IMG/VR virus record: IMGVR_UViG_3300009686_000014
Coordinates: 1 to 29,755 of that record
Source of the DNA: a virus
Direction: 5' to 3' (one strand)
DNA length: 29,755 bases
Part shown: one piece after another, positions 5,674-23,829 of the stretch
Layout: each line of letters opens with the position of its first letter
Numbering within the stretch: position 1 is the stretch's first letter
Position numbers and translations under genes: made by a program
The notes under the pieces: generated by a model
What the model was told of the DNA's origin: nothing
The model's input: the letters and a program-made list of their open reading frames with translations, nothing else
The model's database searches: none

Positions 5674-5702
5674 TTGACGCATGATTAAAATTATGGTATA
5701 AT
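5674..5702 (+). promoter_or_regulatory. sigma-A-type promoter P3
   Basis: TTGACG (5674-5679), 17 bp, TATAAT (5697-5702), context TATGGTATAATAAGTTATAGG. It is the second of the tandem pair and the nearest promoter to the gene at 5743. Confidence 0.92.
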
Positions 5703-5742
5703 AAGTTATAGGAAAAAAAGAAAAGAAAAGAGGAGTGCATTT

Positions 5743-8854: not shown

Positions 8855-8873
8855 GTATTTTCTCTATATATAT

Positions 8874-8902
8874 ATTATATCACTTTTTCAGTACACTGTC
8901 AA
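8874..8902 (-). promoter_or_regulatory. reverse-strand promoter antisense to the SF2 helicase gene
   Basis: On the minus strand TTGACA (plus 8897-8902), 17 bp and TATAAT (plus 8874-8879) occur in context GTGATATAATATATATATAG. This matches the + strand promoters of this phage in box sequence, spacing, extended TG and downstream TA-rich tract. Transcription would start near 8866 and run into the helicase 3' end. No minus-strand gene with a ribosome site follows, so an antisense RNA is the likely product. Confidence 0.8.
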
Positions 8903-8937
8903 ATTTGAAATTGCTTATATAAAACAGCAGTCTAAAT

Positions 8938-14279: not shown

Positions 14280-16064
14280 ATGCAATATAATGAAGATTCT
14301 ATACAGACACTTGAACCACTTGAAGCCATTCGTTTAAAACTTGGTATGTATGTTGGTTCGGCAGATAATAACGCAGTTCATCATATCGTAAAAGAACTTT
14401 TGTCAAATGCGATTGATGAATTTTTAGCGGGTTATGGTAAAAAAATAAGCATAACTATTAAAGAAAACAACTCTATAGACATTCGAGATCATGGTAGAGG
14501 TATCCCTCTGGAGAAGGTAGAGGATGTTTTCACTAAAACTCATACAAGTGGGAAATTTAAAAAAGAAGGAGAGTCTGCTTATGGTGCGTCTGGAGGTCTG
14601 AACGGAATCGGAGCAAAGACCGCAACAGCTACTGGAAATCTTAGAGTAGAGTCTTGCGTTAAAGGCCAAGGAATCGCGGTGGGTGTATATACATACCAGA
14701 CAAAATCCACTTTGATAGACAGGAAAAATAAGGGCGAGTTTCCAGGAACAAGAGTAATATGGACTCCAGATAATGGCGTCTTCGAAGACAATACTATCAA
14801 TTTTGATAAAGTATTTGATCTTGTTCAAATACTCTCATACGCGACTCCGGGGCTTGTTTTTGAAATTAACCATAATGAGAAAACATACGTCATTGAATCG
14901 GGAGGGATTGAGGACTTTTTAACAGATAGTCTGAGCAAAGAGAAAATGTTTTCCCCTCTAATGTGTTTCAAAGCATCCGATGATATACTAAGCGTAGAAG
15001 GCGCAATGGTCTGGACAAAAGAAAGACCGGTAGAACTATCTTTAGTTAATCTTATACCAACTTCAGACCATGGAACGCATGTAACTGCGCTTAAAACTAC
15101 TTTAACCAGAGAACTTAATAAGATGTTGAACTCTGATTTAAAAGGTGATGAGATAAGATCCGGTTGGAGTTTTGCGCTATCTGTGAAAACATTAGACGAG
15201 CCAGTATTCAAAGGCCAATCGAAAGATACTTTAAACATGCCGACAATTAACGCGCCTTTGTCTGCGATGCTTAGAGAAAGTTTTGGAGAGTTACTAAAAG
15301 AACATAAAGACTTTTTTGAAAAGCTCCAAACAATAGTAGCGAAGATGAGAGAGAAGGACGAAGCAATTGCTCAGGTTCGGGAAGTTTTGACAAAGACAAA
15401 GTCTAAATCTAATCCAATACCTAAGAAACTTAAAATGGCTCTTAATAAAACTGGCGCGGAATTGTTCCTTACCGAAGGAGATGGTGCTAGTGGTTCCCTG
15501 ATTCAAACAAGGGATCCAAAGAAACATGCTATCATGTCTTTGCGAGGTAAGCCAATTAATGTTATGAAGCATGAGCTTACGAAGGTTCTTAAGAATCAAG
15601 AAATTCAGGATATGATTATTGCACTAGGCGGGTTTGGAGAAGATTTTAAACCTAGTAAACTAGCCTATGATAAAATTATTCTTGCTTCTGATGCTGATAG
15701 TGACGGAGCACATATTCAAAACTTGCTTCTTGCTTTCTTGTATAGCTTCTACCCACAGTTAATTGAAGCGGGTAAGATTTATATTGTAAAAACACCTTTG
15801 TATATAATCAAAAGAGGAGTGAAGGTTCATTACGTTTTCTCAGAGAGCGAAATGACTAATTTCAAAACGCAGAAGTCAGATACAATAAGCCGTCTAAAAG
15901 GTCTTGGAGAAATTGATAAAACCTTTATGGCTGACTTTATGTTCAATGAAAAGACACGAATCTTAGAGCAAGTAGTTATGGAAGATAAAGAAAAGACTTT
16001 TGAGATACTAGAGCAGATACTTGGAGACGACCCAATGGAAAGAAAAGAGATTCTTTTTGGATAA
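14280..16064 (+). CDS. type II topoisomerase ATPase subunit (GyrB/ParE-like), 594 aa
   Basis: The ATPase/TOPRIM subunit of a two-part type II topoisomerase that changes DNA supercoiling or unlinks replicated DNA. The N-terminal GHKL ATPase shows SNAIDEFLAG (about 42-51), DHGRGIP and GLNGIGAKTA. The transducer region follows. The TOPRIM domain has Glu399 in TEGDGASG and the DxDxD magnesium site at Asp471, Asp473 and Asp475 (ASDADSDGAH). GyrB/ParE proteins are usually 630-800 aa, so this is slightly compact. It is paired with the subunit at 16074, nine bases downstream. The ribosome site is AAAGGAGGTAGATT. Confidence 0.95.
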   Translation: MQYNEDSIQTLEPLEAIRLKLGMYVGSADNNAVHHIVKELLSNAIDEFLAGYGKKISITIKENNSIDIRDHGRGIPLEKVEDVFTKTHTSGKFKKEGESAYGASGGLNGIGAKTATATGNLRVESCVKGQGIAVGVYTYQTKSTLIDRKNKGEFPGTRVIWTPDNGVFEDNTINFDKVFDLVQILSYATPGLVFEINHNEKTYVIESGGIEDFLTDSLSKEKMFSPLMCFKASDDILSVEGAMVWTKERPVELSLVNLIPTSDHGTHVTALKTTLTRELNKMLNSDLKGDEIRSGWSFALSVKTLDEPVFKGQSKDTLNMPTINAPLSAMLRESFGELLKEHKDFFEKLQTIVAKMREKDEAIAQVREVLTKTKSKSNPIPKKLKMALNKTGAELFLTEGDGASGSLIQTRDPKKHAIMSLRGKPINVMKHELTKVLKNQEIQDMIIALGGFGEDFKPSKLAYDKIILASDADSDGAHIQNLLLAFLYSFYPQLIEAGKIYIVKTPLYIIKRGVKVHYVFSESEMTNFKTQKSDTISRLKGLGEIDKTFMADFMFNEKTRILEQVVMEDKEKTFEILEQILGDDPMERKEILFG

Positions 16065-16073
16065 GGAGGGCTT

Positions 16074-18023
16074 ATGAATTTAAATTTAGAAAACAAACTA
16101 TTAGAGAACTTTACAGAATATGCTGATTATGTGAATAACGAAAGAGCTATTACACATTATTATGACGGCCTCAAACCTGTGCTACGAAGAATCTTATTTA
16201 CAATGTATCAAATGGGGCTGACCCCTGATAAGCAAACTAAGAAGTGCGCTACAATCGTGGGAAAAACACTTGAGTTTCATCCTCATGGAGATAGCGGAGT
16301 ATACAATGCTCTAGTAAGAGCGACTCAAGACTTCTCTTTATTAATTCCGGTTCTCACAGGTATGGGTAACTTCGGAAGTTTAGACATGGGTCCTGCGGCG
16401 ATGAGGTATCCTGAAGCTAAGATTTCTCCTTTTGGAATGAGTCTTGTATCTGGTTTAAAAGATAAGATTGTTCCTATGGTGCCAAACTATGACGGAACGA
16501 TAGAGGAGCCAGCTTTTCTTCCTGTTCCTTTTCCACATCTTTTAGTTAATGGAACATCAGGTATCGGAGTAGGAATGGCATCTTCAATGCCCTCTCATAA
16601 CCTATCGGACGTGATAGATATGATTTCGTATTTCATTCTCAACCCTGAAGCTTCGACTTCAGATTTGGTTGACCAATTGAAGGGGCCAGATTTTAGCTCT
16701 GGGTGTGATATTGTTAACAAGGAAGACTTCAAAGAAATCTACTCAAAAGGTTCGGGGAGTTTTAAAATGAGAGCTAAGTTCTCTATAAAGGGTTCCCAAA
16801 TAACAGCGACCAATTTACCATACAAAATAAGTGGCGCGAAGATTCTAGAACAATTGAATAATGCTCAAGATAGAGGTGAATGTGGATTTGTCAAAGAGGT
16901 AATGGACTTAGACGAATCTGTTCTTATTGACATATCTACAAAAGATACAGAAATGGCAATTCGAGAGTTATGTAGAGTTTCTGATTTAGAGAAAAGTTTT
17001 TCATTAGACTTCTCCGTGGTTTTGGATACTCCAAGAAGGGTTAACCTAAAAGACTATACAGACGCTTGGGTAAGGACGCACAAATCTCTGAATAGACAAA
17101 GATTGATTCAGGAGAAAGAGAAGGCTGCCGCAAGGCTCCATATCTTAAAGGGATTTTTTAAAGCTATTGAGATGATGGATTATGTCATTAGAACCATTAG
17201 AGAAAGCGATGATAGAAGTGCGGCTAAAAAAGCTTTGGTCGAGTTACTTGGCTTTAGCTCGCTGCAAGCAGATGCGATTCTTGATATGAGGTTATCAAAA
17301 CTGACTAAGTTGAACAATATCACTCTAGAGAAAGAAGCAACAGAGCTAGAGCAGGAGATAAAAGATCTAACCGCCCTATTAGAGGACGCAGGTAAGTTTA
17401 ATGATTTTCTTGTAGAGAGTATGAATAAACATAAGAAGATGGCGGCTCCAAGAAAAAGTGCTTTAGTTCAGAAGATTTTTGCTAAAGTTGCTAAACAAAC
17501 TGATACGAACTTTAATATAACTTTTATGAGAAACAAAAACAAAATCCTCATTGCGGAGGGGTTCTCATCTAAAAGTATTAATGGGGATAGCAAGTCTCCT
17601 ATATACATTCTACATTCAGACAGTGTAACTCCTGTTAGGAACGCAAAAGAGACTGTCATTGCCGATGTTTGGGAGGTTCTAGACTCTAAAGCTCTTTACA
17701 CCCTTCACTTTAGCGAAGATGGATATGTAAAGAAAACTAAGGCTGCTGATTTGAAAACGAGTAGAAAAGCTATCGTTGCGAAGCAAACTAAAGTAGTATC
17801 GGTCTTGATCACAGACAAAGAACAAGATAAGGATTTATACGCACTACTTACCCTTAATAACGGAAAGCAAATTCAGTTCAACACTGATGATATTAATCCT
17901 ACCGGTAGAAATACCAGAGGAGTCATTGCGGTTAAACTTGAAGAGGGAGAGAAGGTTACCGAAGTTATTTGGACTAGCAAGGTTAACGATGTGCAAGTTG
18001 GAAGAAATAAGAAAATTAAGTAA
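16074..18023 (+). CDS. type II topoisomerase DNA-cutting subunit (GyrA/ParC-like), 649 aa
   Basis: The breakage-reunion partner of the upstream GyrB/ParE-like subunit. The winged-helix region contains RAITHYYDGLKPVLRRIL, the quinolone-region-like segment HPHGDSGVYNALVRATQDF, GNFGSLDMGPAAMRYPEA with catalytic Tyr112, and NGTSGIGVGM further on. Coiled-coil and C-gate helices follow (KLTKLNNITLEKEATELEQE). A C-terminal part of about 150 residues could form a reduced beta-pinwheel. No GyrA-box (QRRGGKG) is visible, so topoisomerase IV-like decatenation or relaxation is more likely than gyrase supercoiling. The start follows AAGGAGGGCTT. Confidence 0.94.
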   Translation: MNLNLENKLLENFTEYADYVNNERAITHYYDGLKPVLRRILFTMYQMGLTPDKQTKKCATIVGKTLEFHPHGDSGVYNALVRATQDFSLLIPVLTGMGNFGSLDMGPAAMRYPEAKISPFGMSLVSGLKDKIVPMVPNYDGTIEEPAFLPVPFPHLLVNGTSGIGVGMASSMPSHNLSDVIDMISYFILNPEASTSDLVDQLKGPDFSSGCDIVNKEDFKEIYSKGSGSFKMRAKFSIKGSQITATNLPYKISGAKILEQLNNAQDRGECGFVKEVMDLDESVLIDISTKDTEMAIRELCRVSDLEKSFSLDFSVVLDTPRRVNLKDYTDAWVRTHKSLNRQRLIQEKEKAAARLHILKGFFKAIEMMDYVIRTIRESDDRSAAKKALVELLGFSSLQADAILDMRLSKLTKLNNITLEKEATELEQEIKDLTALLEDAGKFNDFLVESMNKHKKMAAPRKSALVQKIFAKVAKQTDTNFNITFMRNKNKILIAEGFSSKSINGDSKSPIYILHSDSVTPVRNAKETVIADVWEVLDSKALYTLHFSEDGYVKKTKAADLKTSRKAIVAKQTKVVSVLITDKEQDKDLYALLTLNNGKQIQFNTDDINPTGRNTRGVIAVKLEEGEKVTEVIWTSKVNDVQVGRNKKIK

Positions 18024-18030
18024 CTAAAAT

Positions 18031-18059
18031 TTGACCAACCTCTAAAATCGTGGTATAAT
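18031..18059 (+). promoter_or_regulatory. sigma-A-type promoter P7
   Basis: TTGACC (18031-18036), 17 bp, TATAAT (18054-18059), context GTGGTATAATTAATACATAGG. It is the first of two tandem promoters upstream of the RNA array, with its -35 box seven bases after the topoisomerase stop. Confidence 0.9.
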
Positions 18060-18125: not shown

Positions 18126-18154
18126 TTGACTCTCACCTAAAATCATGGTATAAT
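18126..18154 (+). promoter_or_regulatory. sigma-A-type promoter P8 (RNA array and DUF2828 gene)
   Basis: TTGACT (18126-18131), 17 bp, TATAAT (18149-18154), context CATGGTATAATATATATATAGG. The predicted start is near 18161, about 20 bases before the first array hairpin, so this promoter makes the array and, by readthrough, the DUF2828 mRNA. Confidence 0.92.
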
Positions 18155-18181: not shown

Positions 18182-18236
18182 TGAGTGCTTACAGCAAACA
18201 ATTAATATTTAATTTGATAAATAATAAAAGCACTCA
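18182..18236 (+). ncRNA. array RNA unit E1 (Y-RNA-like hairpin)
   Basis: The outer stem TGAGTGC/GCACTCA (7 bp, plus a TT/AA extension) is followed on the 5' side by TT and ACAGCAA (18191-18197). An inner AU-rich stem TTAATATTTA/TAAATAATAA pairs 9 of 10 positions around ATTTGA. The 3' flank CCTTTTTCTTT is T-rich and could partly terminate transcription. It shares its layout with E2-E4. Confidence 0.82.
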
Positions 18237-18248
18237 CCTTTTTCTTTA

Positions 18249-18306
18249 TGAGTACGGACAGCAATAAAATTTTAAAAGCAAGATATGTTTAAAATAAACG
18301 TACTCA
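18249..18306 (+). ncRNA. array RNA unit E2 (Y-RNA-like hairpin)
   Basis: The outer stem TGAGTACG/CGTACTCA is followed by ACAGCAA (18258-18264), two bases after the common 7-bp stem. The inner stem ATTTTAAA/TTTAAAAT is perfect, with loop AGCAAGATATG. Compared with E1 the middle stem bases change on both sides (TG/CA to TA/TA), keeping the pairing. Confidence 0.82.
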
Positions 18307-18310
18307 GTTT

Positions 18311-18394
18311 TGAGCGCACGCAGCAATACAAAAATCGCTGGTTAATAGCCTGCTACAAATGAGATAGTTACGTACTATACTAATCCAGCGCTCA
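18311..18394 (+). ncRNA. array RNA unit E3 (longest, branched)
   Basis: The outer stem TGAGCGC/GCGCTCA is followed by AC and GCAGCAA (18320-18326). At 84 nt it is the longest unit. Inside, TGGTTA can pair with TAATCCA (one bulge), and ATAGT/ACTAT forms a further hairpin. A competing stem CGCTGG/CCAGCG would use part of the outer 3' strand, so two exclusive folds are possible. Confidence 0.8.
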
Positions 18395-18437
18395 GTATCA
18401 ACTAATCAACTAATAATAATAATAATCCCGGGAGGGT
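18395..18437 (+). other. E3-E4 spacer with AAT microsatellite
   Basis: Between E3 and E4 lie two copies of ATCAACTA and a run of AAT triplets followed by CCCGGGAGGG. No ORF or stable hairpin is obvious. It may be a flexible linker between RNA units. Confidence 0.5.
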
Positions 18438-18487
18438 TGAGCACACGCAGCAACCAAATTGTTATCAAAACAGCAAAAAGGTGCTCA
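18438..18487 (+). ncRNA. array RNA unit E4, adjacent to the DUF2828 ribosome site
   Basis: The outer stem TGAGCAC/GTGCTCA is followed by AC and GCAGCAA (18447-18453). A small inner stem TTGTT/AACAG is possible. The loop side holds a second ACAGCAA (18470-18476). The 3' strand ends one base before GAAAGGAG, the ribosome site of the next gene, so protein binding here could control translation. Confidence 0.82.
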
Positions 18488-18501
18488 GAAAGGAGAAGTA
18501 A

Positions 18502-19989
18502 ATGCTAAGAGATCTTTTAGAAAACCAAGCCTTTACACAAAACGGAGCAATCTCAAACAGGACAACAGGTTCAAACTTATTAAATTTCTTTGCTACAGCA
18601 GGGTCAGCTCGAAACAAACCTGAACTTGAATTAATTCAGATGTTCGAAAAGGCTTACGCAGACGACCCAATCGCCGCTACAGTATTACTGTTTTACTTCC
18701 GAGATGTCCGAGAAGGACAAGGTGAACGTAGACTTTTCAGAGTGGTTGTAAACCATTTTGCTAAAACTCAACCTTCTATCCTTAAGGGTGTTATGTCCCT
18801 TATCCCAGAATATGGCCGTTGGGATGACATGTATCTATTTGTCGGTACTCCATTGGAGACTGAAGCTTTTCGACTTATGAAAAAGCAGTGGAATGAAGAC
18901 CAAGTGTCTGAATATCCATCGCTATTGGCTAAGTGGTTAAAAGGTACTCGCCCTTCAAGCAAAGAAAGTAACAACCTAATGCATTTAACAGCTAGACACT
19001 TTGGTTTTAGTCTTATTACTTATCAGAAAAGCCTTGCTAGATTAAGAAGAAAGCTAAACATTGTCGAAACTAAAATGGCCGAGGGTAATTGGGATGAAAT
19101 TAATTATTCTCATGTTCCTTCTCATGCGATGAAAACTTACTTTAAGGCGTTCTTAAAGCATGACGGAGAGAGATTTAAAGAGTATTTGGACGCATTAAGT
19201 TCTAAGGACGAAATTGTTGCCCAAAGTGTCAAGATCAATGCTTCGACTCTTTACCCTCACGATGTAGTCTACAAAGCTAGAATGAACCAGTATGGTAGTA
19301 GAGAAGAGAATCAGGTTTACAATGCACAGTGGAAGGCTCTTCCAAAGTTTCCTTTGGAGGACACAATTTCAATTGTCGACGTATCCGGTTCAATGTTCTC
19401 CACTATTGGTGACGGAAAACTAGCAGCAATAGACGTTTCCCTAGCATTAGGAATCTATACTGCGGAGAATCTTAGAGGTGAGTTTAAAGACGCCTTCCTA
19501 ACTTTCTCAGACCGTTGCTCTTTAGAAGTCTTAGTTGGAGACGACTTAACTACTAAAGTAAGAAACCTACAAAGTGCTGAATGGGGAATGACTACAAACA
19601 TTGAAGCCGCATTTAAACTAATCCTAGACACAGCGACTGAAAATAACCTGCTTGATAGTGAAATTCCTAAGAGACTTTTAGTAATCTCTGATATGCAATT
19701 TAACCAAGCATCTAGGAGAGCGACTAACTATAACAATGCAAAAAGAATGTTCGAAGAGGTAGGCTACACCTTCCCTCAACTTATTTTCTGGAATGTTATG
19801 GCAGCGCCTAGTAAGGAGTATCCAATTAAGCAAACCGATAACGCTTTGCTTTTAAGCGGATATAGCCCTGTTATCTTAAAGTATATCTACAAAAATGAAA
19901 TGGTTTCTCCCCTGGAGCTAGTTTATGAAGTAGTCAATGCTGAAAGATATTCCCAGGTAGTGAAAATTTTAGAGAAATTGTATCTCTAA
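18502..19989 (+). CDS. DUF2828 family protein: TROVE/Ro60-like domain plus vWA, 495 aa
   Basis: From memory this matches DUF2828, a family of unknown role with the layout of Ro60 (TROVE helical-repeat ring plus von Willebrand A domain). The N-terminal part (about 20-260) has LLNFFATAGSARNK, LLFYFRDVREGQGERRLFR, LIPEYGRWDDM, SLLAKWLKG and VPSHAMKTYFKAFLKHDGERF. The vWA domain (about 285-495) keeps all metal-site (MIDAS) residues: DVSGSM at 293-298, Thr364/365 in GMTTN, and Asp397 in ISDMQF. Ro60 proteins bind Y RNAs and misfolded RNA and act in RNA surveillance. Here four similar hairpin RNAs fill the 5' leader, so they are its likely RNA partners (inference). The start ATG follows AAAGGAGAAGTAA. 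Confidence 0.88.
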   Translation: MLRDLLENQAFTQNGAISNRTTGSNLLNFFATAGSARNKPELELIQMFEKAYADDPIAATVLLFYFRDVREGQGERRLFRVVVNHFAKTQPSILKGVMSLIPEYGRWDDMYLFVGTPLETEAFRLMKKQWNEDQVSEYPSLLAKWLKGTRPSSKESNNLMHLTARHFGFSLITYQKSLARLRRKLNIVETKMAEGNWDEINYSHVPSHAMKTYFKAFLKHDGERFKEYLDALSSKDEIVAQSVKINASTLYPHDVVYKARMNQYGSREENQVYNAQWKALPKFPLEDTISIVDVSGSMFSTIGDGKLAAIDVSLALGIYTAENLRGEFKDAFLTFSDRCSLEVLVGDDLTTKVRNLQSAEWGMTTNIEAAFKLILDTATENNLLDSEIPKRLLVISDMQFNQASRRATNYNNAKRMFEEVGYTFPQLIFWNVMAAPSKEYPIKQTDNALLLSGYSPVILKYIYKNEMVSPLELVYEVVNAERYSQVVKILEKLYL

Positions 19990-19992
19990 AAT

Positions 19993-20021
19993 TTGACTAC
20001 TACCCAAAATCATGATATAAT
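19993..20021 (+). promoter_or_regulatory. sigma-A-type promoter P9
   Basis: TTGACT (19993-19998), 17 bp, TATAAT (20016-20021), context CATGATATAATATATATAG. Its -35 box begins three bases after the DUF2828 stop. It drives the leader peptide and the tandem HTH gene. Confidence 0.92.
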
Positions 20022-20047
20022 ATATATAGAAGAGAAAAGGAGAGCAA

Positions 20048-23770: not shown

Positions 23771-23779
23771 CTCCTATAT

Positions 23780-23808
23780 TTGACTTTATTTTAAAATTAT
23801 GGTATAAT
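23780..23808 (+). promoter_or_regulatory. sigma-A-type promoter P10
   Basis: TTGACT (23780-23785), 17 bp, TATAAT (23803-23808), context TATGGTATAATATATGTATG. It drives the replisome operon 23830-28631. The predicted transcript start is only about 15 bases before the first ATG. Confidence 0.92.
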
Positions 23809-23829
23809 ATATGTATGAGGTGAGAAAAA

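Follow-up and report, generated by a model that had tools for sequence, protein, structure and literature searches.

YrlA, a Y RNA, binds Rsr through its basal stem and acts with PNPase through its tRNA-like domain (PMC8394870), and the rsr-yrlBA-rtcBA operon holds rsr and Y RNA genes together with rtcBA (PMC7790460). Both TROVE proteins and YrlA are already known from phages. Here, we describe a related arrangement in a 29,755-nt viral stretch, IMG/VR record IMGVR_UViG_3300009686_000014 (the window, meaning this whole stretch), where four hairpin units at 18182-18487 precede a gene for a DUF2828 protein. The units belong to a widespread structural family linked to DUF2828 genes in phages and bacteria, gut bacteria among them, and the protein has a predicted Ro60 fold. 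We consider it likely that the array supplies several exchangeable RNA partners of this Ro60-like protein, a ribonucleoprotein (RNP) of the Ro-Y type that probably acts in tRNA damage.

Two other described systems are relevant. The Class I RNAs of dictyostelid social amoebae are 42- to 65-nt RNAs present in many copies; each has a short end stem, free in sequence and with compensatory changes, an 11-nt motif directly past the 5' stem, and a variable remainder; their authors found none outside Dictyostelia, and an RRM protein partner, Rnp1A, is known (PMC7919456). Phage tRNAs that evade tRNA-cleaving defenses provide a precedent for an RNA-based answer to such attack (PMC10264068, PMC11555353). 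We found no paper linking DUF2828 with RNA arrays, Chen 2014, Sim and Wolin 2018, and Sim 2020 being judged by second-hand citation, and the RNA family, which is absent from Rfam and from the searched literature, is apparently undescribed.

A family of hairpin units beside DUF2828 genes

All four window units lie on the plus strand and share one layout, in which a 7-nt arm is followed by 3 nt, CAGCAA, a variable interior, and the complementary arm, giving a 7-bp stem. E1 (18182-18236; 55 nt) consists of arm TGAGTGC (18182-18188), TTA, CAGCAA (18192-18197), the interior, and arm GCACTCA (18230-18236), and E2 (18249-18306; 58 nt) of TGAGTAC (18249-18255), GGA, CAGCAA (18259-18264), the interior, and GTACTCA (18300-18306). 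The long form, E3 (18311-18394; 84 nt), has TGAGCGC (18311-18317), ACG, CAGCAA (18321-18326), a 61-nt interior containing hairpins of its own, and GCGCTCA (18388-18394), while E4 (18438-18487; 50 nt) has TGAGCAC (18438-18444), ACG, CAGCAA (18448-18453), the interior, and GTGCTCA (18481-18487). From E1 to E4, the variable stem positions read TG, TA, CG, and CA in the 5' arm and CA, TA, CG, and TG in the 3' arm, pairing being kept every time.

The window gave three matches to the exact unit pattern, and 100 shuffles gave none; the count is three rather than four because the gap in E3 exceeds the limit of the pattern tool. A covariance model, R1, built from other loci only with the window left out, recovered E1 (E value of 3e-9), E2 (2.9e-5), and E4 (5.5e-4) with no other match in the window below an E value of 1, E3 being too long for it. 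Coordinates, pairing, shuffles, and R1 thus agree with the initial annotation, made from the sequence alone, which had placed four units with compensatory stem changes at these positions. It had also drawn inner stem-loops, but in folding these are weak in E1, E2, and E4, unlike the outer stems, which folding supports.

DUF2828 homologs occur in 681 phage records and in bacteria. The three relatives L006, L007, and L008 (37% to 42% identity) have the identical layout with other arm sequences, and it recurs in phages of Bacillus, Synechococcus, Vibrio, Klebsiella, Staphylococcus, Listeria, Fusobacterium, Mycobacterium, Salmonella, Campylobacter, and Enterococcus. In an unbiased hexamer test of 101 loci, based on a perfect 7-nt arm with a downstream partner, CAGCAA came out on top by far, at exactly 3 nt from the arm in 123 units and at 4 nt in 10. 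A looser rule applied to the 101 loci gave 176 sense matches in 68 loci, compared with 2 antisense matches and a mean of 7.1 for permuted hexamers. Under the strict rule, 135 of 188 nonidentical viral loci contained 295 sense units, with 11 antisense. That homologous DUF2828 loci should bear such hairpins had been set beforehand as a test of the proposal, and most of them do. As a control, nine TROVE loci had no CAGCAA units beside the TROVE gene. The whole genome of Mycobacterium phage LeBron contains just three units, all within 300 bases 3' of DUF2828. P100 and UAB_Phi87 have additional CAGCAA hairpins at other genome positions, apparently by chance.

The family extends to genome contigs of Clostridia, Synergistales, Thermoactinomyces, and some archaeal metagenome-assembled genomes, on which we found 130 units in 58 of 80 loci (antisense, 11), with up to seven per array. 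Among six chromosomal loci chosen independently of likeness to the window, four have units, and a fifth probably has two if the strand of the gene is judged by coordinates. Since the DUF2828 loci of Ruminococcus adjoin cellulase genes, the cassette there is not simply prophage.

What is invariant in the family is the stem, the 3 nt, and CAGCAA. The arms are free, with 183 distinct sequences among the 412 units at all loci, and TGAG is peculiar to the window array; the stem and CAGCAA of the motif first proposed are therefore general, but its TGAG...CTCA arms are not. A literal scan of IMG/VR for those arms was uninformative because they are specific to this phage, returning 120 stretches of which one lay beside DUF2828 and the remainder were chance. 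Across the 412 units, arm pairs differed by 2.3 mismatches within an array and 4.0 between arrays; within arrays, the outer arm bases are common and the inner pairs vary, as with TGAG in the window.

Units are found upstream of the gene, downstream of it, or among tRNA genes, and so are not simply a leader. The initial annotation had placed the array in the leader of a phage gene, which is true of the window but too narrow for a family that also lies downstream, among tRNA genes, and on bacterial chromosomes with RtcB. This variety bears on the possibility that the hairpins are cis-only sites in the DUF2828 mRNA, controlling its translation or stability, rather than separate RNAs. Such an autoregulatory leader would suit the window, where the array occupies the whole leader and E4 runs up to the ribosome-binding site read from the sequence (AAGGAG, 18490-18495, plus strand, two bases past the end of E4), and it would suit the bacterial units, 120 of 126 of which are upstream. 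We nevertheless think it unlikely, as 119 of 286 phage units are downstream, units are interleaved with tRNA genes, one in phage KVP40 lies 7 kb away, and many interiors contain tRNA arms for which a plain operator has no need. Autoregulation is in any case compatible with a Ro-Y-type RNP, and the two can coexist.

tRNA genes accompany DUF2828 at 93 of the 188 viral loci, and 590 of these 594 tRNA genes are on the same strand. At L136 (Bacillus phage BcoS-136) and W03:54306-56956, the units are spread across a tRNA cluster of about 3 kb 5' of DUF2828, interleaved with the tRNA genes. At L137 (Klebsiella phage KP2025), the record annotates a 432-nt tRNA-Arg (1363-1794) that runs into the DUF2828 gene, where the Rfam tRNA match covers 72 nt.

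Predicted Ro60 fold of the DUF2828 protein

The gene that follows the array (18502-19989, plus strand, ATG at 18502) encodes 495 amino acids, and profile searches matched this protein to DUF2828, DUF7788, and vWA only. An AlphaFold2 model, built from an alignment of 42 IMG/VR proteins, was obtained with a predicted local distance difference test score (pLDDT) of 90.6 and a predicted template modeling score (pTM) of 0.89. When the model was compared with the PDB, the top ten matches were all Ro60/TROVE structures (Z scores of 13 to 23.6), led by Xenopus Ro60 with RNA (1yvp; Z score of 23.6 over 408 aligned residues at 11% identity) and including the Ro60 of Thermus phage phiLo (15.7) and Rsr (13.0). 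The best match outside Ro60 was a lone vWA domain (10.3). DUF2828 is thus predicted to adopt the full-length Ro60 fold, in which a vWA domain closes a HEAT ring. Residues D293, S295, S297, T365, and D397 of the metal site are invariant, and the predicted fold and these residues together bear out the Ro60-like ring and intact vWA metal site originally assigned to the protein.

Compared with Xenopus Ro60, Deinococcus Rsr, and phiLo Ro60, DUF2828 shares the HEAT ring, the vWA fold, and the conserved metal-site residues but differs in its low identity, in going unmatched by Pfam TROVE, and in the RNA scaffold encoded beside its gene. A weak match to the vWA_Ro60 family was obtained for 1 of 20 DUF2828 relatives. 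A family without an assigned function hereby gains a predicted fold and a likely RNA partner.

Relation of the units to YrlA and Class I RNAs

As the initial annotation had supposed, the units correspond to no named RNA family: none of the Rfam families claims the window units or their sister units at its own cutoff, and matches of CRISPR-DR33 and ODC_IRES in the window are chance. The YrlA model (RF02553; gathering score of 69 bits) does not match the window units and reaches 47.8 bits in the best sister unit. With the Class I model (RF01414; gathering score of 41.5 bits), units score 15 to 27 bits. Because both cutoffs were applied and neither is reached, we class the units as neither YrlA nor Class I RNAs and place them as a new variant within the Ro-Y kind.

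The likeness to YrlA lies in a basal stem combined with an exchangeable module, in the adjacent gene for a protein of (here predicted) Ro60 fold, and, in bacteria, in the neighboring RtcB and regulator genes. About 20 sister units furthermore contain the permuted module of YrlA (T-arm, acceptor hairpin, D-arm), which the four window units lack, and subthreshold YrlA matches fall inside units of Enterococcus phage EA1, LeBron, and KP2025. Matches far from DUF2828, at 61.4 to 61.7 kb in LeBron, proved to be junctions of tandem tRNA genes. Since the model also matches such junctions, we made a control of the acceptor hairpin: an acceptor-like hairpin of at least 7 bp separates the T-arm and D-arm in 13 of 25 permuted units but in only 2 of 143 tandem tRNA pairs. 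The units also differ from YrlA. The presumed binding end of the units is the stem with NNN and CAGCAA, whereas YrlA has CgaAUGCuugg/ccaaAaAcUuGucG, and sister units mismatch this basal-stem consensus for Ro binding and carry CAGCAA instead. One locus may hold as many as 7 or 8 units, the neighboring gene is DUF2828 and not Pfam TROVE, and units include anticodon arms, whereas YrlA is described with D, T, and acceptor arms (PMC8394870).

With Class I RNAs, the aligned units share a length of about 60 nt, an end stem whose sequence is free, a UUACAGCAA-type motif that comes immediately after this stem, and a variable remainder. The Class I model weakly matched E1, and on 11 phage genomes its eight best phage matches were all CAGCAA units (KVP40, Fnu1, KP2025, P100, a Staphylococcus phage, and UAB_Phi87), with E values of 0.0006 to 0.007 and scores that all fall short of its cutoff. 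Class I RNAs differ in being eukaryotic and in having their own promoters (DUSE) and the binding protein Rnp1A, and the resemblance may reflect either homology or convergence. The units offer a first prokaryotic and viral parallel to these unexplained RNAs. The KVP40 unit mentioned above (W06, 176664-176721, minus strand) is flanked by AAG at its start and CUGU at its end, matching the ends that are conserved in Dictyostelium Class I RNAs. A Class I match away from DUF2828 in a bacterial contig (G014 C76) showed no clear unit.

A wider and more tentative idea, which we regard as possible but doubtful, is that DUF2828 rings and RNAs with the CAGCAA scaffold constitute a Ro-Y-type system common to phages, bacteria, and, through Class I RNAs, social amoebae, in which standing mimics of tRNA parts are shown to anticodon nucleases or to RtcB repair. 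If so, a DUF2828-type partner would account for what Class I RNAs do in Dictyostelium. The RRM partner of Class I RNAs, which have the scaffold in common (PMC7919456), might conversely suggest that the hairpins serve some other factor, such as an RNase, an Hfq-like protein, or the ribosome, and adjoin DUF2828 for coexpression only. Considering that units accompany DUF2828 in very different phages and bacteria, that they are absent beside TROVE genes, and that Ro-Y provides a precedent, we find this improbable.

tRNA parts, RtcB, and the proposed role

Unit interiors in relatives include T-arms, D-arms, anticodon arms, and the permuted YrlA-type module, and some bacterial ones are nearly whole tRNAs. 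Hairpin loops of 7 nt number 89 in phage interiors compared with 15.2 in shuffles, and 51 compared with 5.1 in bacterial interiors; no other loop size is comparably enriched in phages. Anticodon-type loops (CUNNNAA) were observed 24 times in phage interiors, against 0.2 expected, and 10 times in bacterial ones, against none; T-loops were observed 29 and 13 times, against 0.1 and none, respectively. The anticodons are mixed, UUU and GUU being the commonest. ARAGORN and Rfam detected no complete tRNA in the window array, and five tRNA calls overlap units at other loci.

In bacterial and archaeal loci, RtcB is encoded less than 4 kb away in 30 of 80 cases and a WYL regulator in 32 of 80. A frequent gene order in Clostridia is WYL, array, DUF2828, RtcB, a cassette that parallels rsr-yrlBA-rtcBA. 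Together, the tRNA parts in the interiors, the neighboring tRNA genes, and the RtcB/WYL linkage make tRNA damage the most likely job of the system. The arrays lie within tRNA clusters and have tRNA parts inside, so they could be imagined as functionless recombination leftovers of these clusters. This view is already strongly disfavored and we give it very little credence: stem and CAGCAA are kept even without a tRNA part, arms differ yet pair, and the units favor one strand and are linked to a single gene family in different phyla. A type III toxin-antitoxin-like system, in which a repeated RNA antitoxin restrains the protein of the adjacent gene, would explain tandem structured repeats immediately 5' of a single gene but is scarcely credible, given that protein family and structure comparison found no ToxN-type endoribonuclease gene past the window repeats, that the protein has a predicted Ro60 fold, and that units vary freely in length and interior and are often downstream.

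The Ro-Y-like RNP put forward in the initial annotation gains support from the hairpins at homologous loci, the predicted full Ro60 fold, and the YrlA effector module in sister units. Expression and processing of the units, their binding by DUF2828, and a role in tRNA repair or defense are inferred. We propose the following model. The array would be transcribed from a promoter just upstream, yielding four small structured RNAs, possibly cut from the same transcript as the DUF2828 mRNA. By analogy with Rsr and YrlA, the 7-bp end stem and single-stranded CAGCAA may form a common docking module on the Ro-like ring, leaving the variable interior as an exchangeable effector module. The interiors might serve as tRNA-like bait or decoys offered to anticodon nucleases, tRNA-modifying enzymes, PNPase, or RtcB, or perhaps as a scaffold for repair, and tRNAs would consequently be spared, repaired, or cleared in phage-host conflict. 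The short units of the window would do the same job. The family resembles phage tRNAs that evade defense in that its phage RNAs can bear anticodon arms, lie next to tRNA clusters, and may be a counter-defense; it differs in that they are not translation-competent tRNAs and sit on a Ro-type scaffold. The Ro-Y principle would thereby extend to arrays of RNAs with exchangeable modules, anticodon arms among them, and the action of phage tRNA mimics against tRNA-cleaving defenses can now be tested.

Several observations weigh against this reading. By strict rules, 286 of 412 units, those of the window included, have no recognized tRNA part; the interiors of E1, E2, and E4 show no clear T-, D-, or anticodon arm, and an anticodon arm in E3, considered but not claimed, is doubtful at best. 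RtcB is near DUF2828 in 1 of 188 viral loci. Pfam TROVE (PF05731) matches neither the window protein nor its relatives. Hairpins are not seen at every homologous locus, around a quarter (about 28% of the viral loci) being without a strict-rule unit, although variant stems or cores occur at some of them, as with CAGCAC in phage DLP6. Finally, pairing was a criterion for admitting units to the family, which biases any covariation counted on them; fair tests are provided by the hexamer and strand controls. The sole viral RtcB case is the Listeria phage P100 record (119028-120311), with an RtcB-like tRNA ligase five genes past DUF2828.

Two promoter-like sites precede the array on the plus strand, TTGACC-17-TATAAT at 18031-18059, a consensus match only, and TTGACT-17-TATAAT at 18126-18154, about 30 nt 5' of E1 and with near-copies elsewhere in the window. 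Core elements of the form TTGAC-17-TATAAT recur at 5686-5717, 8858-8906 (minus strand), 18031-18059, 18126-18154, 19988-20037, and 23778-23816, and may mark the transcription units of the phage. Immediately 5' of the array, at 14280-18023, the phage encodes GyrB-like and GyrA-like topoisomerase subunits. Eight tRNA genes of the window lie at 425-2139, three of them for tRNA-Leu (CAA, TAG, and TAA).
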